Notes under the pieces: generated by a model
What the model was told of the DNA's origin: nothing
Databases searched by the model: none
The model's input: the letters and a program-made list of their open reading frames with translations, nothing else
In this document: positions 20,163 to 34,461 of the stretch, in pieces
How positions within the stretch are numbered: position 1 is the first letter of the stretch
Layout: the number at the start of each line of letters is the position of its first letter
Translations under genes and position numbers: made by a program
Assembly (NCBI GenBank): GCA_913030895.1
Contig: CAJWGK010000008.1
Coordinates: 1-50,037 of the forward strand
DNA length: 50,037 bases
Source: an uncultured Flavobacteriaceae bacterium
Lineage (GTDB): Bacteria > Bacteroidota > Bacteroidia > Flavobacteriales > Flavobacteriaceae
Direction of reading: 5' to 3'

Positions 20163-20238
20163 TGTCTCGATAAGTTCTGACAATTCAATGGAATTGTTTT
20201 TCCCCAAAAATCCTCATAAATTTGAAAAAATGTGTATT

Positions 20239-21000
20239 ATGAAAATGGTTATTTCACCGGCAAAGTCTCTTAACTATGATACAGACTTACCAATCGAAAA
20301 AAATTCTCAACCTTGCTTCATTGCAGAGGCAAACCGAATAAATGAACTTTTAAAAGAAAAATCTCCTGCAGAGCTTTCTCAAATGATGAAAATTTCCGAG
20401 AAGCTGGGGAATTTGAATTGGGAGAGAAATCAAAACTTTACAACCCCTTTCAACACTGACAATGCGCGACCGGCAGTTTATACTTTTGATGGCGATGTAT
20501 ATGCTGGTCTAGATGTCTTTACGCTTTCGGAGGATAAGATTCATGCTATGCAGAACAGTCTGAGGATTCTTTCTGGCCTATATGGCGTTCTAAAACCGCT
20601 AGATTTAATTCAGCCTTACAGACTGGAAATGGGGACTAAATTCCCTGTTGATACTAACAAAAATCTCTACGAATTCTGGAAAGAGAAAGTAACTAACTTT
20701 CTAAATGATGAGTTAGAGGCTGATGAACTCTTTGTGAATCTAGCCAGCAATGAGTACTTCTCAGCAATCAATACGAAAGTTTTAAAAACTCAGGTGATAA
20801 CGCCACAGTTTAAAGATTACAAAAATGGAAAATTAAAGATGATTTCATTTTTCGCGAAAAAAGCAAGAGGGATGATGGTACGTTACTTATTGGAGTCAGA
20901 AGAGGTAACTGCAGCACATTTATTGGGCTTTAATTATGGTGGTTATGCTTACAGTGAAGAGCATACTGAATCAAAACTCACTCCTGTATTTATTCGCTGA
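20239..21000 (+). CDS. yaaA: Peroxide stress protein YaaA family
   Basis: A DUF328/YaaA protein; family members limit intracellular iron and oxidative damage. The start is set at 20239, giving about 253 residues and the N-terminus MKMVISPAKSLNY that defines the family. The frame is open to 20188, but with no family similarity. Conserved segments are ARPAVYTFDGDVYAGLD, LRILSGLYGVLKPLDLIQPYRLEMG, VNLASNEYF and FFAKKARGMMVRY. It lies about 75 nt after rluD and converges on the VanY gene with 1 nt between stops. Confidence 0.93.
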   Translation: MKMVISPAKSLNYDTDLPIEKNSQPCFIAEANRINELLKEKSPAELSQMMKISEKLGNLNWERNQNFTTPFNTDNARPAVYTFDGDVYAGLDVFTLSEDKIHAMQNSLRILSGLYGVLKPLDLIQPYRLEMGTKFPVDTNKNLYEFWKEKVTNFLNDELEADELFVNLASNEYFSAINTKVLKTQVITPQFKDYKNGKLKMISFFAKKARGMMVRYLLESEEVTAAHLLGFNYGGYAYSEEHTESKLTPVFIR

Positions 21001-21001
21001 T

Positions 21002-21721
21002 TTACAACAAATCACTATCTATTCCCAACACGTGATTTTTCAGGTAGGTGTTAATGAATTTTGAGTCTAATAATTCGGCGCCCAATAAATCGTTATCTTT
21101 AATTAAAGCAATAGCGTCCTGATCGATGTAGGCCTTTAGCATTGGTTTGGATAAGTTAGCATAGCTGTAATGCCAAGGCTCATATAGAAAACCTTTTCTT
21201 TCAGGATCTTGGGTGTAGGGTTTAATAAAACCAAAATTATTAGCATTGGTTTCCATCCATGTTCTAAGCTTGTTGTAGGGACCATTACCATGAAATTTTT
21301 CCTTCAGTAGCAGGTCTCCCTCCGCAGATTGTGAACCATCAATGATATCAATCTCTGTGCCCCAATGATGCCTTGAAGTCCCTGGAATGGTAGAGTATTT
21401 TATAATTTGATTTACAATATCCATGCCTTTCAGGCCTTGTTTTTCAAATCGACTGAATTTTTTGTTCCAAATTGCTTTTTGTCTATCATAGGAACGGTAT
21501 GCAGAAACAACTTTGATTTGGATACCCTCATTTTCTGCAGCCTGAGTCATTTTCTTCAAGGCGATAGCGACTTCTGGAAGCATGGGGTGGCTATTGCCTA
21601 CCATTTGTGGATTTCCTTTTCCAATCAGTAGTAACAAGTCGAAATTTCTCAATGGTTTTGCATCTATATTGGAAAAAGCGAAAAGTCCTAAAGCAGTGCT
21701 TAAAAATTCAGATCGATTCAT
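21002..21721 (-). CDS. M15-family D-alanyl-D-alanine carboxypeptidase (VanY-like)
   Basis: A zinc peptidase that trims D-Ala from peptidoglycan stem peptides. The 239 residues have an N-terminal hydrophobic stretch and the M15 motifs: SAYRSYDRQK (about 73-82), the zinc-binding SxHxxGxxxD pattern as S116-R-H118-H-W-G-T-E-I-D125, and EPWHYSY near residue 198. The N-terminal signal is short and not classical. Resistance is not implied; VanY-like enzymes are common housekeeping genes. Its ATG overlaps the stop of a 33-codon upstream ORF. Confidence 0.9.
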   Translation of the reverse strand: MNRSEFLSTALGLFAFSNIDAKPLRNFDLLLLIGKGNPQMVGNSHPMLPEVAIALKKMTQAAENEGIQIKVVSAYRSYDRQKAIWNKKFSRFEKQGLKGMDIVNQIIKYSTIPGTSRHHWGTEIDIIDGSQSAEGDLLLKEKFHGNGPYNKLRTWMETNANNFGFIKPYTQDPERKGFLYEPWHYSYANLSKPMLKAYIDQDAIALIKDNDLLGAELLDSKFINTYLKNHVLGIDSDLL

Positions 21722-21819
21722 TCCAAAATTTTTTTAAAATGATTTTGAAGTACCTCATACCTCAACATTAAAATTTGTTCTCGTGGCCTACTAATGTCAT
21801 AGATTTCCTCATATTCCAT
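21718..21819 (-). CDS. Candidate 33-residue small protein coupled to the VanY gene
   Basis: A short frame starts MEYEEIYDISRPREQ and ends HFKKILE. Its TGA overlaps the VanY ATG as ATGA, the arrangement of translationally coupled genes. It is charged, with no signal peptide or membrane segment. I do not recognise a family. The exact coupling is the main reason to list it; 33 open codons could occur by chance. A hairpin lies immediately upstream. Confidence 0.35.
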   Translation of the reverse strand: MEYEEIYDISRPREQILMLRYEVLQNHFKKILE

Positions 21820-22067
21820 TTGTTTGACAAAAAGTAGTTCCTATGAGCTACTTATTTTTTTTCAATTTAAGCAATCTTTTTTCAAACGCCATCTTGAATT
21901 GGTTGCCTAATTTTTTTCATGTGAAGTGATAGAAACTTTCAGGTCGAGCTGCCACAAAAGATATATTTTTGATTTAGATGACAAAAATATTTGTAAATAA
22001 TGTTGTGGGAATTAAAAATTAACAAGCTTTTAAATCGTATGTTCAAATTAGCTTTTATCTTTAAAAC
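21722..22067. other. 346-nt gap: leader of the VanY gene and upstream region of the 22068 gene
   Basis: Read leftward, this AT-rich gap holds two tiny overlapping ORFs (21882-21920 and 21848-21892), a hairpin (21832-21853), and the 33-codon ORF. A partial -7-like TATCTTTTG (21955-21963, minus strand) could start a leader transcript. Read rightward, a near-consensus TATCTTTA at 22056-22063 precedes the 22068 gene. Confidence 0.5.
21832..21862 (+). terminator. Hairpin with flanking T tracts, possibly bidirectional
   Basis: AAGTAGTTC (21832-21840) pairs with GAGCTACTT (21845-21853), one G-T wobble, with a 4-nt loop. A run of T follows on the + strand (21855-21862). On the minus strand a shorter run (TTTTTG) follows. 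No + strand gene ends just upstream, so in context it is more likely to act on the leftward VanY leader. Confidence 0.5.
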
Positions 22068-22790
22068 ATGAAACTAAAACTTCTAATTTGCTTAATAATG
22101 CTGCACGTGGTTGCTCTTGCTCAAGAGAGAAAACCTATTAAAGGAAGGTTGATTTACCGTAATGTGAATGTTGTAGCTGCCAATGTTGTGAATGTAACTG
22201 CCCAAATCAATACGATTACTGATGGTGAAGGAGCATTTGAAATTCCCGTTAAAATAGGGGATGAGATTGTTTTTTCATCGGTTCAATACATGATTCGAAC
22301 GGTAGAAATTACCCCGGAAATAATTCAAAAAAATAGACTTATCATTACCGTAAATGAGAAGATTAATGCTTTGGAAGAAGTTGTCATAACTCCAGACGAT
22401 ACTGAAAAGTTTCTCGATTTAAAGGAGGAAGAGTTCAAAGGATATGACTATGAACGGGATAAATCCACCCGACTAGAGAATACAATCGTTAGGCAGGGGC
22501 AACTTAAAAACGGACTGAATCTGATCAATATCGCCAAGTTAATTGTTAAGGCGGTTAATGATAAAACTGAAGAAGAAAAAAGAAATTTAAAGCCAAGCGA
22601 GATTTTGAGTTATGTATTCGATACGGAATTTTTTACAGGTGACCTTGAGCTGAAAAACGATCAGATCGTTGGTTTTTTGGAACACATTGACAAAAATTTA
22701 CCTTCACAAAAATTGCTGAGTCAAAGTCAGCAATTTCAGCTCATTGATTACTTAATTTCCGAAAGTAAAAAGTACCGCAATCAATTGTGA
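22068..22790 (+). CDS. Carboxypeptidase-D regulatory-like domain protein
   Basis: A 240-residue exported protein. A signal peptide (about 1-18, ending VVALAQ) is followed by a CarboxypepD_reg-like beta-sandwich (KPIKGRLIYRNVNVVAANVVNV, TDGEGAFEIPVKIGDEIVFSSVQY). The domain ends with ALEEVVITP, as in the N-terminal region of TonB-linked receptors, but here no barrel follows. The C-terminal part (about 125-240) is charged and uncharacterised. Similar stand-alone proteins are frequent in flavobacteria. It leads a likely operon with the DUF6702 and M1-peptidase genes. Confidence 0.82.
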   Translation: MKLKLLICLIMLHVVALAQERKPIKGRLIYRNVNVVAANVVNVTAQINTITDGEGAFEIPVKIGDEIVFSSVQYMIRTVEITPEIIQKNRLIITVNEKINALEEVVITPDDTEKFLDLKEEEFKGYDYERDKSTRLENTIVRQGQLKNGLNLINIAKLIVKAVNDKTEEEKRNLKPSEILSYVFDTEFFTGDLELKNDQIVGFLEHIDKNLPSQKLLSQSQQFQLIDYLISESKKYRNQL

Positions 22791-22798
22791 TCCTTCAA

Positions 22799-23308
22799 AT
22801 GAAAAAGGTAATCTTTATTTTTTTGGCTTTGATGTCAACTGCTTTTTCGATACATAAATTTTATGTCTCAACGACTTCAATTAAATATATTCCAAACGAG
22901 AGGAGTTTACAGATTACAGCGCAAGTATTTGCAGATGATTTTGAGTCCACTTTGAAGCAACATGTCCAAGAAATTAGATTAAACCCTGATAATAAAGTCG
23001 AATTGATCGACAGTCTCACCAAAAAATATTTTCAAAAAAATTTAGTATTCAAAACCCAAGATGGTATTCTTTCATTTGATTATCTGGGCAAAGTTTACCG
23101 CAATGATTTGTTGGTTGCTTACCTTGAAATTGTTTTGGATAGTACTGTACAAAATTTGGTGGTCCAAAATACTTTGCTCTTTGATTTTTCTGAGGATCAA
23201 AAAAATATACTGCATTTTCGCAATGCGGGAAAAAGAAAAAGTTTTTTGAGTGTTCCCTCGAACAATCGTTTTAATATTGAAATAAATTCCTTCCAAAAGG
23301 AACCCTAA
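22799..23308 (+). CDS. DUF6702-like exported protein
   Basis: A 169-residue protein with a signal peptide (IFIFLALMSTAFS) followed by HKFYVSTTSIKYIPNERSLQITAQVFADDFE. The His-x-Tyr-Val-Ser start and the 'VFADDFE' stretch are what I associate with DUF6702 of Bacteroidota. Function is unknown. From memory, flavobacteria keep it upstream of an M1 peptidase, as here. ATG 22799 is preferred to a GTG at 22787, which overlaps the previous gene's stop. Confidence 0.75.
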   Translation: MKKVIFIFLALMSTAFSIHKFYVSTTSIKYIPNERSLQITAQVFADDFESTLKQHVQEIRLNPDNKVELIDSLTKKYFQKNLVFKTQDGILSFDYLGKVYRNDLLVAYLEIVLDSTVQNLVVQNTLLFDFSEDQKNILHFRNAGKRKSFLSVPSNNRFNIEINSFQKEP

Positions 23309-23361
23309 TCTGACGGTACATAAAATTATATTAATTTAGTAGATCACGTAAGTATCAGATT

Positions 23362-25665
23362 ATGAAAGCAAAAAAAATCTTGTTTTTCCCATTGGTGTTG
23401 TTCAACTTTTTTATTCACGCACAAGAGCGTGACGATACTCCAGCCGTTGGAGGTCATTTCAATACTAATAAGTTCAAACAATTGAAAGAAGAACTCCCAA
23501 CTCCCAATAAGTTTAGGACAGCTTCTGGTGCTCCAGGTGTAGACTATTATCAACAAAAAGTAGACTATGTCATGGACTTAGAATTGGATGATAAAAACAA
23601 AAGATTGTATGGTGAGGAAGAAATTACTTACACGAATAATTCACCAGATGAGTTAGAATATTTATGGTTACAGTTAGATCAAAATATTCGAAAAAAAGAC
23701 GCTCCCGCGTTGCAAAAGAATTCTGAAGGAGACACTGCACATAATATCATATATGATTTAATAGGTGAATCTCAGGTTGATCGTTTTGCCTCTAGACATC
23801 TTAGTGAACCCTTTGATGGTGGATTTAAAATCCAGTGGGTAAAAGACGATTTAAACCAGCTTTTAAAATATAAAGTTAACATGACGATGATGCGTGTGGA
23901 TTTACCGCAACCGCTAAAAAGTGGAGAACAATTCAAGTTTTCCATAAAATGGTGGTATAATATCAATGATCATGTAAAAAAACGTGCAAGGTCAGGCTAT
24001 GAGTTTTTTCCCAAAGATGGCAATAGACTTTACGTTATCGCCCAGTTTTTTCCGCGTTTAGCTGTTTACAACGATGTCGAAGGTTGGCAAAACCATCAGT
24101 TTTGGGGTAATGGTGAGTTCGCATTGAATTTTGGGGATTATCATGTCAATATAACTGTTCCGGCTGACCATATATTGGAGGCTACGGGCTCACTACAGAA
24201 CCCCAAAGAGGTGCTTACTCGGGATCAGTATAGGCGTTACAAGAGGGCGGAAAAATCATTTGATGAACCTGTCTTAATTGTCAATCAAGAAGAAGCTGAG
24301 GCTAATGAAAAAGGCTTTTCTGAGGCAAAAAAAACATGGAAGTTTGTCGCTGAAAACGTCAGAGATTTTGCCTTTGCCAGTTCAAGAAAGTTTATATGGG
24401 AAATGATGGCTGTGCCTGTGGGAGATAAAAATGTAATGGCAGTTTCGCTTTATCCTAAAGAAGGTAATCCACTTTGGGAACAGTTTTCTACAAAAGCGGT
24501 TGTGCAAACCCTAAAAACGTATTCTAAATTTACCTTTGATTACCCTTATCCCAAGGCGGTATCAGTTCATTCTAAAAATCAAGGAATGGAATACCCTATG
24601 ATTTGTTGGAATTACGGGCGACCAGATGAAGATGGTACTTATTCTTTAACTGTAAAATATGGAATGATCAGTGTTATCATCCACGAAATTGGTCATAACT
24701 ACTTTCCTATGATTGTCAACTCTGACGAGAGGCAATGGGGCTGGATGGACGAGGGGCTAAACACATTTGTGCAATACTTAACGGAACAGGAGTTTGCAAA
24801 ACGCAATCCCTTATCTATGGACGGTTTGCCTAAGTATCCTTCTCGAAGAGGAGACCCAGCGCTGATTGTTAATTATATGGCTGGAGATCAAAGTTATTTA
24901 TCTCCGATTATGTCAAATCCTGAGAATATTTACCAGTTGGGCCCAAATGCCTATGGAAAACCTGCTACTGCACTTAATATTTTGAGAGAAACGGTAATGG
25001 GACACGAATTATTTGATCATGCTTTTAAGACTTACGCCAATAGATGGAAATTTAAACACCCTACACCTGCAGATTTTTTTAGAACGATGGAAGATGCCTC
25101 AGCCGTTGACTTAGATTGGTTTTGGAGGGGATGGTTTTATTCTACAGACTACGTTGATATCGGCGTGAAAAGTGTCAAGAAACTCAGGTTTACCAATACT
25201 CCTAATGCTAAGGCAAAGGTGTTGATCGATAAATATGGATTGACGGATGAAGATTATCCCCTTGTTTTTTTGGAAGAGAACGATTCGCCTGAAATATCAG
25301 ATCAATCAGGGTCAGATATCCTGAATACCTATCTAGAAAAAATCGAGGCTAATGAAGGTGTTATGCCTAAGCTTCCCAAAAACTTCTACGAGGTTACTTT
25401 CGAGAAACCAGGGGGATTGGTAATGCCGATTCTCGTTCAATATAATTACAATGACGGAACTTCAGAGCAGATCAAGTATCCTGCTGAGATCTGGCGAAAA
25501 AATGATAAAACGGTGAAGAAAATTATTGCAACAGATAAAGAGATTGTTTCCCTAGAACTAGATGCAAATGCTTCCACCGCAGATGTAGAGACAGCAAACA
25601 ATATTTGGCCTAAAAAAGAATCTGAATCTGAATTTGATCAATTTAAGTCAGAAGCCAATCGTTAA
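23362..25665 (+). CDS. M1-family metallopeptidase
   Basis: A 767-residue exported zinc aminopeptidase-like enzyme with a signal peptide ending FFIHAQ. The zinc site is HEIGH (441-445) with the third ligand Glu464 in WMDEGLN, exactly the HExxH-x18-E spacing of gluzincins. The usual GxMEN substrate motif appears as QGMEYP, a variant of large Bacteroidota M1 proteins. The N-terminal beta domain and C-terminal Ig-like part are present. No type IX secretion C-terminal domain is visible, so a periplasmic location is likely. Confidence 0.9.
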   Translation: MKAKKILFFPLVLFNFFIHAQERDDTPAVGGHFNTNKFKQLKEELPTPNKFRTASGAPGVDYYQQKVDYVMDLELDDKNKRLYGEEEITYTNNSPDELEYLWLQLDQNIRKKDAPALQKNSEGDTAHNIIYDLIGESQVDRFASRHLSEPFDGGFKIQWVKDDLNQLLKYKVNMTMMRVDLPQPLKSGEQFKFSIKWWYNINDHVKKRARSGYEFFPKDGNRLYVIAQFFPRLAVYNDVEGWQNHQFWGNGEFALNFGDYHVNITVPADHILEATGSLQNPKEVLTRDQYRRYKRAEKSFDEPVLIVNQEEAEANEKGFSEAKKTWKFVAENVRDFAFASSRKFIWEMMAVPVGDKNVMAVSLYPKEGNPLWEQFSTKAVVQTLKTYSKFTFDYPYPKAVSVHSKNQGMEYPMICWNYGRPDEDGTYSLTVKYGMISVIIHEIGHNYFPMIVNSDERQWGWMDEGLNTFVQYLTEQEFAKRNPLSMDGLPKYPSRRGDPALIVNYMAGDQSYLSPIMSNPENIYQLGPNAYGKPATALNILRETVMGHELFDHAFKTYANRWKFKHPTPADFFRTMEDASAVDLDWFWRGWFYSTDYVDIGVKSVKKLRFTNTPNAKAKVLIDKYGLTDEDYPLVFLEENDSPEISDQSGSDILNTYLEKIEANEGVMPKLPKNFYEVTFEKPGGLVMPILVQYNYNDGTSEQIKYPAEIWRKNDKTVKKIIATDKEIVSLELDANASTADVETANNIWPKKESESEFDQFKSEANR

Positions 25666-25717
25666 TTTCAACTGTTTTGAATATAGAAACAGTAACACTA
25701 TAACTTGCCCTTTTTTA

Positions 25718-25725
25718 TATATTTG
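25718..25725 (+). promoter_or_regulatory. Promoter -7 element of tatA
   Basis: TATATTTG is an exact TAnnTTTG match ending 14 nt before the tatA ATG at 25740. Confidence 0.55.
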
Positions 25726-25739
25726 TCAAAAAATCGGCT

Positions 25740-26012
25740 ATGTTTCTTTTTATCAGCGGGGCTGAGTTAGTTTTCATCTTTTTTATTGTGCTGCTCGTTT
25801 TCGGTGCGGACAAAATTCCTTCAATTGCTAAGACCCTAGCCAAGGGAGTGACGCAGGTGAGAAATGCTACCAATGAAATAAAATCCGAGATTCAAAAGTC
25901 AGTAGACTCAAACGATACTGTGGGTGGTGTCGGTAAAGACATAAAGAAACAGGTTGATAAAGTAAAAGAAGATTTTGATGAGCTGACCGATTCTATAAAG
26001 AGAGATCTTTAA
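25740..26012 (+). CDS. tatA: Sec-independent translocase TatA/TatE family protein
   Basis: Forms the variable-size channel that moves folded proteins through the inner membrane. The 90 residues have one N-terminal transmembrane helix (about 5-20) followed by FGADKIPSIAKTLAKG, the conserved hinge and amphipathic helix (canonical FG at the hinge). A charged, coiled-coil-like tail follows. TatC is not in the window. Its last 4 nt overlap the end of the convergent O-methyltransferase gene (shared TTAA). Confidence 0.94.
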   Translation: MFLFISGAELVFIFFIVLLVFGADKIPSIAKTLAKGVTQVRNATNEIKSEIQKSVDSNDTVGGVGKDIKKQVDKVKEDFDELTDSIKRDL

Positions 26013-26650
26013 ATTTTCTTACAAATCATCAGTCCATCTCGAATCGGTAAAAGTAGTGTTTCTAAACGCGGGTCTTTTTTGACCAGTTCGTTAAACTGAA
26101 TGATCCCATGAGTTTCAGAATCAGATTTCTCATTCTTATCCAATACTTTGCCACTCCACAAAACATTATCAGCGATCAAAATCCCACCTTTTTTAATTAG
26201 TGGAACTACCAATTCAAAATAGTTGGGGTAGTTGGATTTATCCGCATCAATAAATACTAAATCTGGCTTTAAGTTGAGTTGAGGAATGATATTTTTGGCT
26301 TCTCCCAAATGGGCAAAAATTTGATTTTTAAACTGAGTTTGGTCAAAGTATTTTTTCTGAAAATCCATTAGCTCTTCATTGATTTCAATGGTATGGATTT
26401 GCCCCTCTTTGTTTAATCCCTCTGCAAGACATAGTGTGGCGTAGCCAGTGTAGGTTCCAATTTCAAGTATGGTTTGAGGTTTAAGCATTTGAGCAATAAA
26501 ACTTAAAAACCTTCCTTGAAAGTGCCCACTTATCATTCGAGGTTGAAGAATTTTCTGGTGGGTTTCTTTATTGAGTTTTTTTAAAAGTTGAGATTCCTCT
26601 TGAGTGTATTTGATGGCATAAGCCATTATATCATCGTTTATGAAATCCAT
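26009..26650 (-). CDS. Family 3 O-methyltransferase (class I SAM)
   Basis: About 213 residues from ATG 26650; a GTG at 26656 would add two residues and overlaps the preceding stop. SAM motif I is ILEIGTYTGYATLCLA. The acidic DLVFIDADKSNYPNYFE and ILIADNVLWSGKVLD are the metal-binding signatures of catechol- and caffeoyl-CoA-type O-methyltransferases. The physiological substrate is unknown. It directly follows the flavin reductase gene. Confidence 0.9.
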   Translation of the reverse strand: MDFINDDIMAYAIKYTQEESQLLKKLNKETHQKILQPRMISGHFQGRFLSFIAQMLKPQTILEIGTYTGYATLCLAEGLNKEGQIHTIEINEELMDFQKKYFDQTQFKNQIFAHLGEAKNIIPQLNLKPDLVFIDADKSNYPNYFELVVPLIKKGGILIADNVLWSGKVLDKNEKSDSETHGIIQFNELVKKDPRLETLLLPIRDGLMICKKI

Positions 26651-26655
26651 TTTCA

Positions 26656-27300
26656 CTAAATGGGTTTAGATTTGGTCGTTAAAATTGCTTTAGGTCTGGC
26701 GTATTCGAGTCTTTTCTCAAGTTTTGGTAGGGCGTAACCATCGAGTCCGTTAATGGTCATTACTTTTCCGTCCTCAAGTTTTACCCAGCCGTCTTCTTTG
26801 AGGAGTTGATCTTCTACAAATATATATTCGATGGCAGCAACAATCAATACACACCCATTTTCTTTAATATCGTATTCGTTTAGGTAGCGGCAACCCAGCT
26901 GAATCGGCGATCCTTTGACAAAAGGTGCATACCAATCGTTTTTGTATTCTGGAGTCAAATCTGTTTGATTGAACTCGGAGATTTCCTCATCGTATTTTGC
27001 GCTGGTATGATGGGCATCTTCTATTTGATCTAGTGTTACATGATTTACGGTAAACACTTGATTTTCCTTAAAATTTTTGTAAGTGTGGCGAGGGACGGTG
27101 TTGGGTCTTAAGGTAAAACTAAGTAAGGCTGGATCACTGCCCAAATGTGTGATAGAACTAAAAATAGCTAAATTTTCGTTTCCTGAATTGGAACGGCTAC
27201 CTATCATATTCGCAGATTTATAGCCTGTAATACTATTGATTAAGTTAAGTCGATAAACCTTTGGAAAGCTTTTGATATCATTCAGGTCAAAATACTTCAT
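26656..27300 (-). CDS. Flavin reductase-like (FMN-binding) family protein
   Basis: A 214-residue protein, starting at ATG 27300 (MKYFDLND) rather than the longer frame to 27333. The Flavin_Reduct-type split-barrel is seen in RSNSGNENLAIFSSITHLGSDPALLSFTLRP, RHTYKNFKENQVFTVNHV, and the central PIQLGCRYL stretch. The family reduces flavin with NAD(P)H or works as an FMN-binding oxidoreductase; no partner monooxygenase is nearby. It is next to the O-methyltransferase (5 nt between coding regions). Confidence 0.85.
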   Translation of the reverse strand: MKYFDLNDIKSFPKVYRLNLINSITGYKSANMIGSRSNSGNENLAIFSSITHLGSDPALLSFTLRPNTVPRHTYKNFKENQVFTVNHVTLDQIEDAHHTSAKYDEEISEFNQTDLTPEYKNDWYAPFVKGSPIQLGCRYLNEYDIKENGCVLIVAAIEYIFVEDQLLKEDGWVKLEDGKVMTINGLDGYALPKLEKRLEYARPKAILTTKSKPI

Positions 27301-27310
27301 AAAAGATGTT

Positions 27311-27511
27311 TTATGTATTAGATTTTTTGTCAAAATAGAGTACTGCAGCTAATAATCCAATGACGATAACAACCAGACCACCTATAAAAAGGTAATGATC
27401 TGATAATTCATTTGTGGACAAAAAGTCGTCTTGGGTTACTTTTAGATCGACAAACCGAATTAGAATCCCTAGGGGAATAAGTAGCAGAAGGAATCGGATT
27501 TTTTTAAACAT
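27311..27511 (-). CDS. Small membrane protein with two transmembrane segments
   Basis: A 66-residue protein. A first hydrophobic segment (about 6-22, RFLLLLIPLGILIRFV) and a second (about 42-60, YLFIGGLVVIVIGLLAAVLYF) enclose a short polar loop. The tail is DKKSNT. I recognise no family. It lies 10 nt upstream of the flavin reductase start and may be the first gene of that operon. Confidence 0.65.
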   Translation of the reverse strand: MFKKIRFLLLLIPLGILIRFVDLKVTQDDFLSTNELSDHYLFIGGLVVIVIGLLAAVLYFDKKSNT

Positions 27512-27571
27512 AGTTTTAGTAAGTTAAAAAGAATTGTTTTTATTGTAAAATAAAAAAAACATTCGATTAAA

Positions 27572-27844
27572 TCATATAGATTTTAAGGAATCGATGGTAA
27601 TTTCTGGGTGTTCAAATGGAATCGTTTTAATGCACTCGAGATGTGCATTTTCAAAATCTTCAAAAGATTTTAAACAATTTTTCACCGAGGGCATTTTATT
27701 TTGCTCTTCAATAAAATTATCTTCACTCAAAATCTTAGTACATAAACAAGCATCAGCCATACCGATTTCGTTATTTTTTTTGGATATAAAAATTACTATT
27801 AGAGTAATTATGAATATAACAAATAATAAAAGTTTTTTGATCAT
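27572..27844 (-). CDS. Small secreted or membrane-anchored hypothetical protein
   Basis: A 90-residue protein. An N-terminal hydrophobic helix (about 4-20, KLLLFVIFIITLIVIFIS) is a signal anchor or signal peptide. The rest is polar with four Cys (two in ACLCTK, one in VKNCLKS, one in HLECIKT), suggesting disulfides outside the cytoplasm. I know no family. It is followed 60 nt later by the next leftward gene and preceded by a long spacer. Confidence 0.55.
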   Translation of the reverse strand: MIKKLLLFVIFIITLIVIFISKKNNEIGMADACLCTKILSEDNFIEEQNKMPSVKNCLKSFEDFENAHLECIKTIPFEHPEITIDSLKSI

Positions 27845-27886
27845 GATATTTTAAAGCTAAGCATTTTAATAGTCAATGAATATATT

Positions 27887-27924
27887 AGAAAAAAATTGGG
27901 CGAGATGAAGATTCCCGCCCAATT
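27887..27924 (-). terminator. Leftward rho-independent terminator with no assigned gene
   Basis: AATTGGGCG (27894-27902) and CGCCCAATT (27916-27924) form a perfect 9-bp stem with a 13-nt loop. On the minus strand it is followed by a run of T (complement of 27889-27895). It should end a leftward transcript, but no leftward gene is visible between it and 28784, so an unannotated RNA is possible. Confidence 0.65.
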
Positions 27925-28077
27925 CACGAAATAATAAAAAAACCAAACAATTAAATTAACTAAACTAAGTGTGTTATTCTTTAAGAATATAACTTAATAA
28001 TACTGCTAAAATAATTTGGTATTTTATTAATCTTTGTCAGACAAATGTTTAATTTATTCTTTTTGTCACTTAAACAA

Positions 28078-28109
28078 TTTTCTAATTAATTTTTTTAATA
28101 ATTAGAAAA
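28078..28109. repeat. Perfect 11-bp inverted repeat
   Basis: TTTTCTAATTA (28078-28088) and TAATTAGAAAA (28099-28109) flank a 10-nt AT spacer. All but two base pairs are A/T, so stability is low. It may be an incidental product of base composition. Confidence 0.4.
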
Positions 28110-28328
28110 ATACAATAGTCCAAAATGAGGATTATTCAATAAAATGATTGATTCCTAAAGATTAGTTGCTCTTCTTTGACCAAAAAACAGATATAACTGT
28201 TTATTTTTTAATAGTATTTTCATATTGTTTAGCTTTTGAGCGTTTAATTCTAATATCAAGGATCACTAAAAAGTATCATTTGTTTAATTTCTGAAACTAA
28301 ATACTGTTTGCTTAGTTATGTCGACGCT

Positions 28329-28403
28329 TTAGTTTTATCTCAATAGGTTTAGAGTGCTAACTTGAAAGGGTCAAGGTCATGAGTTTTAATCCAGTAGCAC
28401 CCA
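28329..28403 (+). pseudogene. Decayed tRNA-Val copy
   Basis: This stretch aligns without gaps to the intact tRNA-Val at 29609-29683, at a constant offset of 1,280 bp. By my count 75 of 100 positions match over 28331-28430, including the following terminator relic. Conserved blocks include GGTTTAGAG, CTTGA, AAGGTCA and CCAGT. The acceptor 5' strand and the anticodon stem no longer pair, and the anticodon position reads GAA, so it cannot be a working valine tRNA. Its age relative to the intact copy cannot be told from sequence alone. Confidence 0.75.
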
Positions 28404-28406
28404 AAA

Positions 28407-28434
28407 GGGTTTGTAATAAATTGCTAAAGCTTTT
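28407..28434 (+). terminator. Eroded terminator of the tRNA-Val pseudogene
   Basis: AGGGTTTGTAATAAATTGCTAAAGC aligns with the hairpin after the intact tRNA-Val, but several stem pairs are lost and the T tract is down to four. It is listed to show that the duplicated unit included the terminator. Confidence 0.5.
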
Positions 28435-28784
28435 CTAAAATATTTTTTAAACAATCTAAATTGAATATAACTATCTTATACACTCACGACAAAAGTTTTT
28501 TATTATTCAGGAGGCAGGTATAGATGCTTTTAATGTAATTGACACTTGGTGCTTATAACTTGCAAAAGCTACCGAATTGGGGTTATACCTAATGGATTTA
28601 TAATAAGTGGTTTTGATAAGGGAATGATAAAAAAGTAAGCTATTAGGAACGAAATGGTTTGAAGAGTGGTAGCTATATAAAACCGATGAAAAGCAGTTGC
28701 AGAATTTGGTAACAAAGAAGATACAGATAAAGCTTAAGGTATATATACTTTGCTTTTAAAAGAGTTGCGCTTTAAAATAGTAGG

Positions 28785-29147
28785 TCAATAAAGATTCTTC
28801 TTGAAAAAGAAACTTGCCCAAATTGCCTTTGACCAAGCATTTAGGTAAGCGTTTAAAACCAATAGTATTCCAACGATCCAAAGAAAGCAATATAGAACTG
28901 AAAAAGAACTGCTCAATGACCAATAAATAAAAGTGGTAAACATCATTAAACCAACACCTAAAGCATACGCCACATACATTGAACCATAGTAAAAGCTTGG
29001 CTCAATTTTTAAACGGGTTTGACAGTTTGAACAACGGTTCCTAACTCGTATAATTTTGAAGAACAGACGAGGTCGACTTTCTAAAAATTCTCCTTTACAA
29101 CATACAGGACATTTTAATCTAAATATATTAATGAGCGTCAATACCAT
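28785..29147 (-). CDS. DUF983 domain-containing membrane protein
   Basis: A 120-residue protein with two N-terminal zinc-ribbon-like pairs: CPVC (about 14-17) and CSNC (about 39-42). Then follow the family stretch EPSFYYGSMYVAYALGVG and two transmembrane segments (about 55-75 and 80-100). DUF983 is widespread in Bacteroidota and alphaproteobacteria, with no settled function. It lies between the decayed and intact tRNA-Val copies, with long spacers on both sides. Confidence 0.85.
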   Translation of the reverse strand: MVLTLINIFRLKCPVCCKGEFLESRPRLFFKIIRVRNRCSNCQTRLKIEPSFYYGSMYVAYALGVGLMMFTTFIYWSLSSSFSVLYCFLWIVGILLVLNAYLNAWSKAIWASFFFKKNLY

Positions 29148-29552
29148 TATTGATTGATTTTTGATTAGTATTTATTTAGTTTTAATTTGATAATTCTAAC
29201 GAATATCATTGCGATATCTTTAGCAAGCTAAGCACGTTGTTGTGTATTAGTTTAAGATTAAAGGAAATTCAAAGATTTATTTGTTTTGTTGTAGTAAATG
29301 AAATCCTGTAATTATTCTAAGTTATAAAAAACAATGAAAAAAAGTTCAAATTTCGGGCTTTAACAACCCAAAATCAGTTTGATTATTAATCATCAGTTGA
29401 AAATAAGCCATACCCTGGTTAACAACAGAGTAACTACTTCCTTTTTTCTGTTCAACTATTATAATGGAAAGGGTATTTCTACAAGTAAATTCTATAAGCT
29501 AAGATGGGAATTAAGAAAGGAATAAATATCCTATATTTGTTTGCCAAAGGAA

Positions 29553-29560
29553 TAAATTTG
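29553..29560 (+). promoter_or_regulatory. Promoter -7 element of tRNA-Val
   Basis: TAAATTTG is an exact TAnnTTTG match 48 nt before the mature tRNA. It would give a precursor with a leader of roughly 40-45 nt containing the GGGCACTATT direct repeat. Confidence 0.5.
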
Positions 29561-29581
29561 GGCACTATTACGGGCACTATT
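29560..29581 (+). repeat. Direct repeat GGGCACTATT x2
   Basis: GGGCACTATT occurs at 29560-29569 and 29572-29581, separated by 2 nt, 27 nt before tRNA-Val. Such GC-containing short repeats stand out in this AT-rich spacer. They could be a protein-binding site, or arm-type sites left by an integrated element; this is inference. Confidence 0.45.
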
Positions 29582-29608
29582 TTATTCTAGATAACTTAAT
29601 TGGCTTAC

Positions 29609-29683
29609 GGGTGTTTAGCTCAGTTGGTTTAGAGCGCTACCTTGACAGGGTAGAGGTCACCGGTTCGAATCCAGTAACACCCA
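29609..29683 (+). tRNA. tRNA-Val (anticodon GAC)
   Basis: A full cloverleaf can be drawn. Acceptor: GGGTGTT (29609-29615) with AACACCC (29676-29682), discriminator A at 29683. D stem: GCTC/GAGC. Anticodon stem: CTACC/GGTAG with loop TTGACAG, giving anticodon GAC (29644-29646), which reads GUC and GUU valine codons. T arm: ACCGG-TTCGAAT-CCAGT, with one C-A mismatch at 29661/29673. CCA is not encoded. It is followed by a strong terminator and preceded by a -7 element. Confidence 0.95.
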
Positions 29684-29686
29684 CAA

Positions 29687-29717
29687 GGGTTTGCAAGAAG
29701 TTGCAAGCCCTTTTTTT
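29687..29717 (+). terminator. Terminator of tRNA-Val
   Basis: GGGTTTGCAA (29687-29696) pairs with TTGCAAGCCC (29701-29710), one G-T wobble, loop GAAG, followed by seven T. Confidence 0.85.
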
Positions 29718-29786
29718 ATGTTTATAGAACTTTAACCCAATAAAGTATCTCCGCTCTTAAATAATTAATCCTCTTCGGGATAGGAA

Positions 29787-31094
29787 CTATTCCCTTCTGT
29801 AACTGATATAGGATTTTAGTGCTTCTAAGAATGTTTTATTAAGCTTTTTTTCATCAGTCGACATTTCATTATGGCTGATAGGATTTTTTTCTTCAGGATC
29901 ATTTTTAATATTGTAAAACCTGTCTCCAACATATAACTTATATGTGTCATTTCGAACCCACTCTTGGGATTGATGTTTTGGATTTGAACCTCCATCTCGG
30001 TTATACCAGGTATGTATCCAATCTTTTACTCTGCCTTCTTCACCTAATAGTTCAGAATAAAAACTTACCCCGTCTAAATCTAATTCGGGATCGATACTTA
30101 TTCCAGCCGCATCACATATTGTAGGAAAAAAATCGCCTAAATCAACAAGAGCTTTGGAATTTTGATTGGGTTTTATCACACCTTTCCAGCTCGCAATTAA
30201 TGGTACATGGGTACCATTGTCAGTAGTATTTCCTTTTCCTCCAACCACTGATTTGTTGTCCATCATCGAAACAACAGGGACGTCTGTACCGTTATCCCCA
30301 GTAAATAGAATTAAGGTGTTTTCTCTTAATCCTAACTTTTCTAATTGTTTGACAATACGACCAATTGAATAATCCATGTAGGAGACCATATCTCCAAAAT
30401 ACTTCGCGTTCCCCTTATAGGTTTTTGATCCAAGATCATTGGGGTCCCAATCCTCAGAATGGGGGGTAGGATCAAATGGACAATGGGTTAGAATCATCGG
30501 GTAGTACACCAAAAAAGGATCGTCTTTTTTCCTTTTTATGAAGTCATTGATGTAATCTACAACGATATCCGTGGAGTACTCCCCCTTATTTTCATCGTAT
30601 AGCTCTCCATTTATTTCTAGAACAGGGTTGACATATCTTTTGTCTAATCCATCAGCGTTTCTTCCAGTGGTTGTCAATTGCCATAAAATATGTTCGTCAA
30701 ACCCAAAATGATCTGGTAGTGAAACATCTTTTCCAAGTTGCCATTTTCCTGCAATTAAAGTCGCATAGCCTTCTTTTCTAAGGATTTGACTAAAAGTTTT
30801 TTCATTTGGGTCTAAAAAGCCGAACATGGTATGATTTTTCTTGTTAGATCTACCTGTCATCAGACGTACTCTCGAGGGGGTACAGATGGGTTGCGCATGA
30901 CAATTTTCAAATTGGATTCCACTTGCCGCTAGCTCAGTGAGAAAAGGCGTTTTATAAGAAGTTCCTCCATAGGAGTTAAGACACTCATATCCCAGATCAT
31001 CGGCCATTATCATAACGATATTGGGTCGTTTGTCTTTTTGAGCATTGACTAGGAATGAAAAAAATATCAAAAAAGAAAAGATAGAATATTTCAT
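29787..31094 (-). CDS. Secreted S1-type sulfatase
   Basis: Hydrolyses sulfate esters, here probably of sulfated sugars. The 435-residue protein has a signal peptide ending FLVNAQ. The formylglycine motif is CTPSR (71-75), where Cys71 would be converted to formylglycine. Metal ligands are in MADDLGY (about 30-36) and FTGDNGTD (about 252). The second signature reads GKWQLG (116-121), with Gln where His is more usual. No C-terminal type IX domain is visible, and no active formylglycine-generating enzyme lies in the window. It lies 37 nt downstream of an esterase gene in the same direction. Confidence 0.9.
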   Translation of the reverse strand: MKYSIFSFLIFFSFLVNAQKDKRPNIVMIMADDLGYECLNSYGGTSYKTPFLTELAASGIQFENCHAQPICTPSRVRLMTGRSNKKNHTMFGFLDPNEKTFSQILRKEGYATLIAGKWQLGKDVSLPDHFGFDEHILWQLTTTGRNADGLDKRYVNPVLEINGELYDENKGEYSTDIVVDYINDFIKRKKDDPFLVYYPMILTHCPFDPTPHSEDWDPNDLGSKTYKGNAKYFGDMVSYMDYSIGRIVKQLEKLGLRENTLILFTGDNGTDVPVVSMMDNKSVVGGKGNTTDNGTHVPLIASWKGVIKPNQNSKALVDLGDFFPTICDAAGISIDPELDLDGVSFYSELLGEEGRVKDWIHTWYNRDGGSNPKHQSQEWVRNDTYKLYVGDRFYNIKNDPEEKNPISHNEMSTDEKKLNKTFLEALKSYISYRRE

Positions 31095-31131
31095 ATGTAA
31101 TTGATTAAAACTTAGTGTTAATAGGTGTAAA

Positions 31132-32022
31132 TTAATTGTTTTCTATAAAATTTTTTATAATTCGATTAGCCTCTGTTGACATTGAACCAAATCCATGACC
31201 AGCTCCCTGCAACCTGTAATGAATAATTTGTCCATCAAGATAGCTATATTTGAAAAAATTTTGGGGATCCTCCACCGCCATATTATCTGCTATTTCTTCG
31301 CCAGTATATCCCATAGCCTTAGCAAAAATAAAAGCACTGTATTCGGCATCTAAAAATACATATTCTAAAACCCCCTGACCGCCATAGTAGGGGGCTACTT
31401 TGTCATTAGATCCAGCAAGACAAAGAATTTTTCTTCCCTGTTGGGGGACAGATGGAACATTAAATTGATTTTTGTCGGATTGTGCCCAAAATATATTTTC
31501 TCGATATTGAAAAGTATTTAACTGAGAAACCCTACAAACAGCCTTTTTAAAAATATCCTTATCAAGTTCAATCAGAAGTTGATTTACCAATGCAGATCCA
31601 TTGGAACTTCCAATTATCGAAATGTTGGTTGTATCCACATTGTTGAATTTTTTTAGATAAGAAATGACTTCTGCTATGAACTCTACGTCTGGAGCTTTAG
31701 ATCTTTCTTTGCTAATATTCCAGCTTCTCATATAACCTTGAGGAGCGACAAGGATATGATTGTCTAAATAATCAAATTGGTTTATAAAGGAATCGGCACG
31801 TCCACCACCCCCGTGTAAAAGGATTGCGACAGGGTATTTGTCCAATCCGCTGGTCGGTATCTTGGTGAATACACTCCGGGCATAGCCATCTGGTGCTTGT
31901 GACCAATTTTGAACGATTTCAAAAACCTCTGAATCTAGTAACTGAAGACCAGTTTCCATTTCCATGTTTTTTTGACAATAACATAGGTTAAAGGCGAGTA
32001 CAAATAAAAAGTATTTTTTCAT
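31132..32022 (-). CDS. Secreted alpha/beta-hydrolase esterase (PHB depolymerase/LpqC-like)
   Basis: A 296-residue exported protein; the N-terminus is a signal peptide with Cys at 14 and 16, but without a canonical lipobox. The oxyanion region is ILLHGGGG (about 67-74), the nucleophile elbow is GSSNG with Ser140, the acid is in AGSNDKVAPYYGG, and the histidine is in QGAGHGFGS. This pattern is shared by polyhydroxybutyrate depolymerases, feruloyl and acetyl-xylan esterases. Beside a sulfatase, de-esterification of a plant or algal polysaccharide is plausible, but the substrate is not shown by sequence. Confidence 0.82.
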   Translation of the reverse strand: MKKYFLFVLAFNLCYCQKNMEMETGLQLLDSEVFEIVQNWSQAPDGYARSVFTKIPTSGLDKYPVAILLHGGGGRADSFINQFDYLDNHILVAPQGYMRSWNISKERSKAPDVEFIAEVISYLKKFNNVDTTNISIIGSSNGSALVNQLLIELDKDIFKKAVCRVSQLNTFQYRENIFWAQSDKNQFNVPSVPQQGRKILCLAGSNDKVAPYYGGQGVLEYVFLDAEYSAFIFAKAMGYTGEEIADNMAVEDPQNFFKYSYLDGQIIHYRLQGAGHGFGSMSTEANRIIKNFIENN

Positions 32023-32151: not shown

Positions 32152-32376
32152 TCAGCCTATGACCTTGGCAATGGTATATCCAATTGCAATGCCCAGAAAA
32201 AACATGATGAGGACTTTACTTGAGAAAAACCAGTTGAATTTATCTTCCCAAGCATCCGGGATAAAATTTTGATTTTCATCTTTTGCAAAGCCTGAGCGGA
32301 TAGAATAACCAGCATACCAATAAACGCCTCCGAATAGGACAGCGAGGAAAACTAAAACAACTAAAATATCTTGCAT
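32152..32376 (-). CDS. Small membrane protein with two transmembrane segments
   Basis: A 74-residue protein. An N-terminal helix (about 3-20, DILVVLVFLAVLFGGVYWYAG) and a C-terminal helix (about 53-72, KVLIMFFLGIAIGYTIAKVIG) flank a polar loop containing DENQNFIPDAWEDKF. That loop resembles one calcium-binding type-3-repeat unit (D-x-N-x-N-x-IPD). I recognise no named family. It is a single-gene unit with its own promoter element, terminator and a phased repeat upstream. Confidence 0.7.
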   Translation of the reverse strand: MQDILVVLVFLAVLFGGVYWYAGYSIRSGFAKDENQNFIPDAWEDKFNWFFSSKVLIMFFLGIAIGYTIAKVIG

Positions 32377-32407
32377 GAGATTTGATTTGGGTAAATATCA
32401 ATATTAG

Positions 32408-32415
32408 CAAATTTA
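32408..32415 (-). promoter_or_regulatory. Promoter -7 element of the 32152-32376 gene
   Basis: The minus strand reads TAAATTTG, an exact TAnnTTTG match, 31 nt before the start codon. The three-copy phased repeat begins directly upstream of it. Confidence 0.6.
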
Positions 32416-32447
32416 ATAAAAACCTGATAAAAACCTAATATAAACCT
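32416..32447 (-). promoter_or_regulatory. Three direct repeats phased at 11 bp (candidate regulator site)
   Basis: On the + strand ATAAAAACCT occurs at 32416-32425 and 32427-32436, and ATATAAACCT at 32438-32447: three copies at exactly 11-bp steps, ending flush against the -7 element of the 32152-32376 gene. On the transcribed strand this is AGGTTTTTAT repeated. Direct repeats of about 11 bp are typical of OmpR/PhoB-type regulator sites. The regulator is unknown, and acs lies on the other side about 110 nt away. Confidence 0.5.
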
Positions 32448-32559
32448 CCTTAGTTAGGTATGTTAATGTGTTTTGAGTCAATACCATAAGTGTTTTCTAA
32501 TGTCATTTAATTTTGAATAAACCCATTGAAAGCTTATGTTTACTTAAATATTTTTAGAA

Positions 32560-34461
32560 ATGAATTACCAAATAAAAAACCTGTTAGAATACACTAATGC
32601 ATACGACAAAAGTGTTTCTAATCCTGAGCAATTTTGGGAAGAAATCGCCAATGGATTTCAGTGGAAAAAGAAATGGGATAAAACTTTAGATTGGAATTTT
32701 GATACTCCAAAGTTGGAATGGTTTAGAAATGGAAAACTCAATTTAACAGAGAATATTTTTGAAAAATTACTTCCCACGCACAGAGATAAAACAGCCATTA
32801 TTTGGGAGCCAAATGATCCAGATGCGCCATCAATTCATTTGAGTTATGGTGAACTTTACATTGAAACCTGCAAGTTCGCTAATGCGATGAAAGCCCAGGG
32901 GGTTCAAAAAGGAGATCGGGTGATTATATATATGCCCATGGTGCCAGAGGCTACAGTAGCCATGTTGGCTTGCGCTAGAATTGGAGCAATCCACTCTGTT
33001 GTTTTTGCAGGGTTTTCTGCCGCTGCCCTCGCAGATCGGATTGACGATTGCCAAGCTAAAATGGTACTCACTTCGGATGGTAACTTTAGAGGGAACAAAC
33101 AAATTCAAGTGAAGGCGGTTGTTGATGAGGCGCTTTCAAAAACAGATTCAGTAGAAAAGGTAATTGTACTTAAACGAACTGGAGAGGACGTAATGATGCA
33201 TTCGGGAAGAGATATCTGGTGGGATGAAGCCATTGCGGGTCAGTCTGAAGTAAACCAAGCTGAGGAAATGGATTCGGAGGATTTATTATTTATCCTCTAC
33301 ACTTCTGGTTCAACAGGTAAGCCCAAAGGAGTGGTTCACACTACTGCTGGCTATATGCTCTATACGTATTATTCCTTTATCAATGTATTTCAATATCAGG
33401 AGGACGATGTTTATTGGTGTACGGCTGATATTGGTTGGATTACTGGTCATTCTTACATTGTATATGGACCACTTTTGGCAGGAGCTACAACGTTAATGTT
33501 TGAGGGAGTTCCTACCTACCCTCACCCTGGAAGATTTTGGGAAATTGTAGAAAAATATAAAGTCAATCAATTCTACACTGCCCCCACAGCAATTAGAGCA
33601 TTACAAGTTCACGGAACTGAACCTGTTGAAAAATTTGATTTGAGCTCATTGAGCGTCATTGGTTCTGTAGGAGAACCTATTAACGAAGAAGCTTGGCACT
33701 GGTACCATGAACATATAGGTAAAGGTAAATGTCCTTTGGTAGATACTTGGTGGCAAACTGAGACTGGTGGTATAATGATCGCTCCTCTGGCAGGAATTAC
33801 CCCCAATAAACCCGCCCACGCATCCTTGCCCTTGCCAGGGGTTCAACCAGTTATTGTTGATGCAGAAGGAAATGAATTGATTGGAAATAATGTCGAGGGG
33901 AATCTTTGTATCAAATTTCCATGGCCTTCAATGATCAGAACAACCTATGGTGATCATCAACGCTGTAAAGACACTTATTTTTCTACCTACAAAGGAATGT
34001 ACTTCACTGGAGATGGTGTAAAAAGAGATCATGATGGTTATCTCAGGATTTTAGGTAGGGTGGATGACGTTATTAATGTGTCAGGTCACCGAATGGGAAC
34101 TGCAGAGGTTGAAAATGCTATAGATGAACATCCCGAGGTGGTTGAATCTGCTGTAGTGGGCTATCCCCATGAAATCAAAGGTCAAGGAATTTATGCTTTC
34201 GCTATTTGTGACAGCTCAGAAAAATCTAATGAGCAATTAGCAGAAGAAATCAAACAACTAGTTAGAAAAATTATTGGCCCTATTGCTAAACCAGAACATG
34301 TTCAAGTGGTATCTGGTTTACCCAAAACCAGATCGGGAAAAATTATGCGTAGAATCCTTAGGAAGGTAGCCAGTAGAGATCTTTCAAATATGGGTGATAT
34401 TTCAACATTGCTCAACCCAGAGGTGGTAGACGAAATTATTAAAGGTGCGGGATTATATTAA
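32560..34461 (+). CDS. acs: Acetyl-CoA synthetase (acetate--CoA ligase)
   Basis: Activates acetate to acetyl-CoA through acetyl-AMP. The 633 residues fit the family. Motifs are the P-loop-like YTSGSTGKPKGVVH, the WWQTETGG substrate/adenylate motif, the YFTGDGVKRDHDGY hinge region, and the C-terminal KTRSGKIMRRILRK whose Lys is the usual acetylation site. GDRVIIYMPM and ADIGWITGHSY also fit. It converges on murF with 2 nt between stops. Confidence 0.95.
   Translation: MNYQIKNLLEYTNAYDKSVSNPEQFWEEIANGFQWKKKWDKTLDWNFDTPKLEWFRNGKLNLTENIFEKLLPTHRDKTAIIWEPNDPDAPSIHLSYGELYIETCKFANAMKAQGVQKGDRVIIYMPMVPEATVAMLACARIGAIHSVVFAGFSAAALADRIDDCQAKMVLTSDGNFRGNKQIQVKAVVDEALSKTDSVEKVIVLKRTGEDVMMHSGRDIWWDEAIAGQSEVNQAEEMDSEDLLFILYTSGSTGKPKGVVHTTAGYMLYTYYSFINVFQYQEDDVYWCTADIGWITGHSYIVYGPLLAGATTLMFEGVPTYPHPGRFWEIVEKYKVNQFYTAPTAIRALQVHGTEPVEKFDLSSLSVIGSVGEPINEEAWHWYHEHIGKGKCPLVDTWWQTETGGIMIAPLAGITPNKPAHASLPLPGVQPVIVDAEGNELIGNNVEGNLCIKFPWPSMIRTTYGDHQRCKDTYFSTYKGMYFTGDGVKRDHDGYLRILGRVDDVINVSGHRMGTAEVENAIDEHPEVVESAVVGYPHEIKGQGIYAFAICDSSEKSNEQLAEEIKQLVRKIIGPIAKPEHVQVVSGLPKTRSGKIMRRILRKVASRDLSNMGDISTLLNPEVVDEIIKGAGLY

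Follow-up and report, generated by a model that had tools for sequence, protein, structure and literature searches.

The window, by which we mean the whole stretch of 50,037 nt analysed here, comes from a flavobacterial metagenome-assembled genome (G000) that is in 110 contigs and 86.6 % complete. It carries an intact tRNA-Val(GAC) gene and, upstream of it in the same orientation, the relic of a second tRNA-Val gene that is still followed by the remains of a terminator. The features of the locus are listed in Table 1.

Table 1. Features at the tRNA-Val locus of the window
Feature	Position	Strand	Remarks
Left anchor gene	27572-27844	-	90 aa; origin for distance measurements
Full-length tRNA-Val pseudogene (relic)	28329-28404 (start 28329 or 28330)	+	anticodon position GAA
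Decayed relic terminator	28405-28434	+	first 25 nt: 18/25 vs intact copy, 19/25 vs G016 terminator
Gene debris	28425-28790		no long open frame; common to G014 insert upstream of tRNA-Val
DUF983 gene	28785-29147	-	120 aa, intact open frame; above Pfam cut-off
Nuclease-like gene fragment	29361-29468	-	36 aa, 69 % identity to 321-aa ORF of G016
Small ORF tail remnant	29455-29530	+	many other genomes have such a tail before tRNA-Val (about -150 to -75)
Working-gene leader (P2)	29532-29608	+	TATATTTG, presumably promoter-like; tandem GGGCACT at 29560-29579
Working tRNA-Val(GAC)	29609-29684	+	20/21 pairs; found by ARAGORN, Rfam and covariance model
Working-gene terminator	29685-29717	+	GGGTTTGCAAGAAGTTGCAAGCCC, then T run; read from sequence
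Sulfatase-like and esterase-like genes	29787-32022	-	variable right neighbours; named by sequence reading, no family search
Right anchors: 74-aa gene and acetyl-CoA synthetase-like gene	32152-34461		name of second gene presumed

The relic was recognized as a direct repeat of 101 nt in a repeat search of 27000-31000, in which 28334-28434 matches 29614-29714 with 78 % identity at a constant offset of 1280. The original prediction had aligned 28331-28430 with 29611-29710 at this offset and counted 75 matches in 100, and a recount gives exactly that figure. When the intact gene and terminator are placed ungapped along 27845-29600, their best match, 74/101, is to the relic, compared with a mean of 40.1 and a maximum of 48 in 2000 dinucleotide shuffles; elsewhere on the + strand of the window the score is at most 44. 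A tRNA-Val gene profile (17 relatives plus the window's own gene) finds the relic with an E value of 9.8e-12, and over 20 loci, with the working gene masked, every match other than the relic has an E value of at least 3.3. A covariance model made from the tRNA-Val genes of 17 relatives and run over 25000-32000 with filters off gives the relic 30.9 bits (E 7.9e-8), followed by the working gene read antisense (13.3 bits) and by unrelated places at 6.1 bits or less. The earlier claim that a whole gene and its terminator had been copied and had then decayed is upheld by the repeat, the profile and this model. However, ARAGORN reports no tRNA at the relic, and neither does Rfam, at the gathering level or at E values up to 10 on 27850-29600. 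The general Rfam tRNA model is silent because the fold has been lost, and a covariance test of the relic, which had been put forward with the original prediction, accordingly favours homology with the model of the tRNA-Val family and not with the general one.

Most of the relic shows homology to a functional tRNA. Its ungapped homology begins at tRNA nucleotide 6, the first five bases being all mismatched, and MAFFT favours a 1-nt deletion near the 5' end, which places the gene start at 28329 or 28330. Positions 6-33 match at 23 of 28 nucleotides, and the 3' part and the terminator match too. BLAST of the relic against its own genome returned the relic itself and one 24-nt match (E 0.74), and as it also missed the intact copy it is too insensitive to exclude a third copy.

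The prediction that the relic can neither fold nor read valine codons was also sound. It retains 10 of the 21 cloverleaf pairs, compared with 20/21 in the working gene, and the anticodon has changed from GAC to GAA. With the working copy taken as reference, 20 of the 27 differences in the 101 nt are changes from G or C to A or T, a bias that fits decay. To judge from its sequence, the relic has lost both the cloverleaf and its decoding capacity and is a plain member of the tRNA pseudogene class.

The tRNA-Val locus was compared in 18 genomes of the same genus and one other; three of the 21 same-genus relatives (G006, G007 and G020), which lack a strong match to the window tRNA, were left out. 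Wherever contigs span the locus, gene order is kept in the genus, with the left genes (20188 to 27844) on one side, the right anchors (32152-34461) on the other, and the tRNA and variable DNA on either side of it in between. The sulfatase-like and esterase-like genes were not found between the tRNA and the right anchor in L038, L043, L044, L047 and L052, and so look like variable cargo too. The homologue of gene 32152-32376 in L193 (UBA980) lies upstream of tRNA-Val, at about -3.2 to -3.0 kb, whereas the gene is downstream in the window's genus, so that either the homologue or the tRNA has moved. Just upstream of the left anchor gene, 27885-27965 holds a GC-rich hairpin followed by a T run (minus strand), beside AAAAAACCAAACAATTAAATTAACT, which is almost invariant in all eight relatives aligned. 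No Rfam family exceeds its cut-off in 27885-27965, and this segment is a candidate leader, attenuator or small RNA.

Across the relatives, the tRNA lies ~0.4 to 5.1 kb from the nearest left anchor found, which is a gene further left in G011, G018, G004 and G016. An orthologue of the gene at 27572-27844 was found in 13 relatives, with distances taken from the furthest in-frame start. tRNA-Val lies 481, 486, 488 and 490 bp from it in G008, G001 (570 if the aligned part of the anchor alone is used), G009 and G012, respectively, and 399-1509 bp from it in the remaining nine. In the window, the relic is 484 bp and the working gene 1764 bp from the same gene. Because the distance agrees with that in four relatives, ~484 bp would be the old position and the relic the former resident; the relic thus seems to mark an older tRNA-Val site.

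Three of these four relatives agree with the place of the relic by distance alone, and it is to this extent that the comparison with sister genomes, to which the original prediction had looked for the ancestral arrangement, bears out the older position (four of 13). In a midpoint-rooted tree of 19 genomes, G000 falls in a clade with G013, G003, G005 and G019 that is fully supported and does not include the four short-distance relatives, and in its clade-mates G003, G005 and G019 the tRNA is found at 869-952 bp from the anchor. Homology of the left flank (27985-28250) extends to G019, G005 and G003, for each of which none of 300 shuffles reached the score. None of 300 shuffles reached the score with G012, but the match is marginal (351 vs 345), and homology of this flank to G009, G001 and G008 was not detectable, with 16, 13 and 94 of 300 shuffles reaching the score. 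For the last 80 bp before the relic (28250-28328), no match was seen in the nine relatives tested.

By eye, the relic had seemed to retain the leader type of the short-distance relatives (P1), but this was rejected because a leader-only profile gives an E value of 0.46 and the alignments of the 28250-28328 flank were empty. An E value of 1.6e-32 obtained with another profile was carried by the tRNA part, and the relic itself was in that profile.

The DNA between the two copies is foreign. Its first part, the debris at 28425-28790, aligns with the insert upstream of tRNA-Val in G014 with a score of 516, compared with 277 for the best of 100 shuffles and 253 for the best other relative. When the debris was divided into three pieces, two outscored 500 of 500 shuffles; the score of the middle piece was reached in 2/500. 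As neither the relic nor the DNA to its left is detectably shared with G014, the sharing starts at about the end of the relic's terminator. The DUF983 gene, predicted to be trapped between the copies, does lie there and outside the conserved locus: a long DNA match is found in two and a protein match in six of the 22 genus genomes, its own included in both counts, and the copy in G009, which is 88 % identical, is on a different contig. It is likely to be acquired cargo.

The DUF983 gene is the sole ORF of at least 60 aa in the interval, and no integrase gene was found between the copies. Comparison by blastx with 1223 ORFs of related loci added two fragments. For one of them the label nuclease-like derives from family matches of the 321-aa ORF of G016 that fall below Pfam cut-offs; the other, the small ORF tail, is open as 37 aa in UBA980 and is also carried by L131, which is the same contig place as G172, from another genus. 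The interval retains neither a recombinase gene nor a tRNA 3' fragment.

The leader of the working gene, in which we take TATATTTG to be promoter-like, is shared with other species. It matches a leader profile of G002, G017 and G014 with an E value of 4.1e-10 and a profile of six genomes outside the fetched genus set with an E value of 1e-4, and the DNA upstream of the relic matches neither. In pattern searches, the GGGCACT tandem was found in three of the 22 genus genomes, once per matching genome and at tRNA-Val, and a stricter form of the pattern in the window's genome alone among 149 family genomes. That these repeats are integrase arm sites was considered and not adopted. Viral contigs contain no exact copy of the 46-nt 5' half of the tRNA, and nothing in phages and plasmids covers 80 % of leader plus tRNA, the matches listed being to the tRNA region alone. 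The T stem of the working tRNA has a C-A mismatch (ACCGG/CCAGT) that is also present in G002, G015 and G001.

To judge from ordinary 3'-end repeats, tRNA-Val is an integration hotspot in four related genomes (L078, G436, G014 and G016). Among 67 loci with the exact 46-nt 5' half, 17 of which are also among the G-series contigs, three (L078, L115 and L137) have a second tRNA match with E < 0.01. Those in L137 and L115, at +262 and +278 bp, are adjacent tRNA-Pro genes and were discarded. In L078, profile positions 30 (in the anticodon arm) to 76 of the tRNA are repeated 5197 bp downstream, and the same is seen in G436 (the genome to which L085 belongs), with the repeat 5463 bp downstream. A decaying tRNA 3' half is found in G014 at the host's right flank, on a separate contig. 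In G016, a decaying end of the 3' part, together with the terminator, lies 1.8 kb downstream; it is of the CCCTC type, still used by its sister G010, while the working gene of G016 is of the CCAGT type. To judge from these types, G016 looks like a record of an exchange of the tRNA 3' part. G010 (L045) also has a weak covariance match on the opposite strand ~3.5 kb downstream (E 0.028).

Both the L078 and G436 intervals contain a large gene near the far repeat whose product (484 and 588 aa, respectively) passes no Pfam cut-off and is presumed to be recombinase-like only from its place and a motif. The 484-aa protein has no Pfam or PHROGs match and, in NCBIfam, only NF047479 at E 0.07, far below the cut-off; its matches in the genus are to G010, where the gene is broken by stops, and weakly to G018, and it found nothing in phages or viral contigs. 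The 588-aa protein has the sub-cut-off matches Arm-DNA-bind_5 (E 0.0036) and DUF5900 (E 0.072), none in NCBIfam and, among solved structures, one unrelated match (E 0.4). The compact intervals of ~5.2-5.5 kb behind tRNA-Val at L078 1796-7039 and L194 9626-15135, each of which has a small GRxxGxPNK-type protein besides its recombinase-like gene, are poorly covered by Pfam, PHROGs and NCBIfam; that of L078 also has a weakly Rep-like protein (PF23343, below the cut-off).

In alignment A1, the first 46 nt of the tRNA are identical in all 15 same-genus rows (without G021) and the T arm is of several types. In G021, the tRNA-Val(GAC) at the same syntenic place (L052 ~9418-9493) differs in its acceptor stem and T arm (GTTCCG...CGGAAC) and, on its sequence, is most simply seen as a whole-gene replacement. 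In the same locus, an ORF of ~37 codons, found by eye, ends shortly upstream of tRNA-Val. Among 397 family genomes, none was seen to have an element between two intact copies; 149 have a strong match and two have two, on separate contigs, no more than two candidates per genome having been scored. Contig ends inside the tRNA, present in several assemblies, were dismissed as signs of integration polymorphism, since tRNA stretches that are identical between species can break short-read assemblies.

The window is probably a snapshot of the displacement of a resident tRNA gene. A 3'-part exchange puts no DNA upstream of a tRNA and leaves no full-length dead copy, and a second complete tRNA must therefore have arisen or arrived. 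The reading we lean towards, with modest confidence, is that it arrived with an incoming module and that the resident copy then decayed. The resident tRNA-Val(GAC), now the relic, would have stood at its old place beside the gene at 27572-27844, and a mobile module, possibly placed by a tyrosine recombinase, would have inserted just behind its terminator. In what may have been a single event, this module would have brought a second complete tRNA-Val at its far (right) end, with its own promoter and leader. Because a working copy was now supplied, the resident would have been freed from selection and would have decayed, and the module would in time have eroded to ~1.1 kb, in which gene debris, a single DUF983 gene and broken mobile-type genes are left. 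An incoming module is favoured because the leader of the working gene and the scraps upstream of it are common to other species and because the DNA from the relic's terminator onwards is shared with G014. Against it count the E value of 0.46 with which the leader profile of the short-distance relatives misses the DNA upstream of the relic, and the terminator type common to both copies, which also fits a local duplication. The original prediction had offered, as one of two possibilities, an element that, before it eroded, had restored the tRNA. This comes close to an incoming module; from the comparison, moreover, the relic probably holds the older place and the working gene is the displaced one.

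The other possibility offered, a tandem duplication, is disfavoured on the sequence of the flanks. Only the 101-nt unit repeats at length in 27000-31000, which gives no support to a duplication of a larger unit, and the leader of the working gene is shared with other species but is unlike the DNA upstream of the relic. A looser form, in which the tRNA and terminator were copied locally within the genome and the cargo was inserted between the copies later, agrees with the closeness and common orientation of the copies and with their shared terminator type (18/25). However, a local copy of the relic would not be expected to have a leader and upstream tail that are separately shared, nor does this account readily for debris next to the relic that is common to G014, and we consider it unlikely.

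That the order was the reverse, with the working gene ancestral and the relic an incoming copy that failed and decayed, is rather improbable. The working leader and upstream tail occur outside the genus too, so this leader type could be ancestral, and the place of the relic is matched in three of the four short-distance relatives by distance alone. Nevertheless, its 484 bp falls within the 481-490 bp of those four, the flank to its left is homologous to that of clade-mates up to 28250, and the cargo-type DNA lies directly to the left of the working gene and not of the relic. An ordinary integrase scar, the relic being one end of a usual integrated element, would suit a hotspot such as tRNA-Val, but the usual scar is a partial tRNA. 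By the counts given for the Islander collection in the part of that source consulted, a 3' fragment is present in 3760 of 3919 islands, and 159 have a 5' fragment (PMC4383910). A full-length relic that matches in positions 6-33 as well as in the 3' part and terminator makes such a scar very unlikely, and the variant in which the element carries a full tRNA merges into the incoming module favoured above. An assembly chimera, conceivable in a metagenome-assembled genome with the contig number and completeness given above, is hardly credible, as both flanks are syntenic with relatives and a pseudogene that is 25 % diverged is not a product of misassembly.

It is a possible, though tentative, extension that mobile modules of these flavobacteria bring along a complete tRNA-Val with its leader and take the place of the resident time and again, a housekeeping tRNA in effect 'hopping' along a conserved locus. 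The window would then be an intermediate with the old copy dead and the new one live, G021 a finished replacement by a foreign allele, and such replacements would have produced the spread of anchor-tRNA distances (~0.4 to 5.1 kb). For islands at tRNA genes, the usual explanation is exchange at one end, mostly the 3' end, which does not readily cover foreign DNA upstream or replacement of the whole gene. With its full length and apparently older position, the relic is evidence for the possibility of a whole-gene duplication followed by loss of the resident, and it points to a route, open to test, along which cargo may come to sit upstream of a tRNA. The locus is of a known kind, but the full length of the relic and its probable marking of the old position are unusual.

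Tycheposons are reportedly tRNA-linked mobile elements of marine bacteria, and Riemerella anatipestifer, which has a 10K genomic island, is also a flavobacterium. Like tycheposons, for which a tyrosine recombinase is described in the part of the Methylophilaceae study consulted, the window has a tRNA-bordered variable island with cargo genes (PMC10872708). Unlike them, its interval has no recombinase and no large ORF, so that this hallmark is missing; the elements of L078 and G436 are ~5 kb long, with recombinase-like proteins that no Pfam family matches above its cut-off. The 10K island of R. anatipestifer resembles the window in being integrated at a tRNA (Arg) with a direct repeat and differs in that, according to the available portion of its description, the repeat is a 53-bp attachment repeat and no whole tRNA is copied (PMC6764341).

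In the excerpted Islander definition, an island is a tRNA and a displaced fragment of it with an integrase between them (PMC4383910). The window is similar in that a working tRNA and a non-functional copy bracket foreign DNA, but here the second copy lies upstream, has its full length and extends through the terminator, and no integrase gene is left. Because the copy is whole, upstream and without an integrase, the window is not of the Islander type by those criteria; neither a partial tRNA repeat nor an integrase between the copies is present. The length filter (2 kb or more) and the integrase filter, as described there, would drop the interval (PMC4383910). By their repeat structure, the elements in the related genomes are of the Islander type, and the start of their repeat in the anticodon arm corresponds to a crossover sublocation listed for Islander islands (PMC4383910). 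We found no description of a full-length tRNA relic at an island in the open-licence literature, as far as the consulted parts of its papers go (PMC10872708, PMC4383910, PMC6764341 and PMC9897764 among them), which does not prove its absence from print.

Two smaller repeats were noted in the genomes compared. A cassette system flanked by TNAGRTGGGAAYTNAGRAA was considered and not adopted; one or two copies are found in eight of 22 genomes at no more than 1 mismatch. In two genomes (L055 280-722 and L057 4733-5154), a small gene family (MKNIKDITISIF...) is bordered by direct repeats of ~30 bp that resemble the sequence preceding the tRNA leader.
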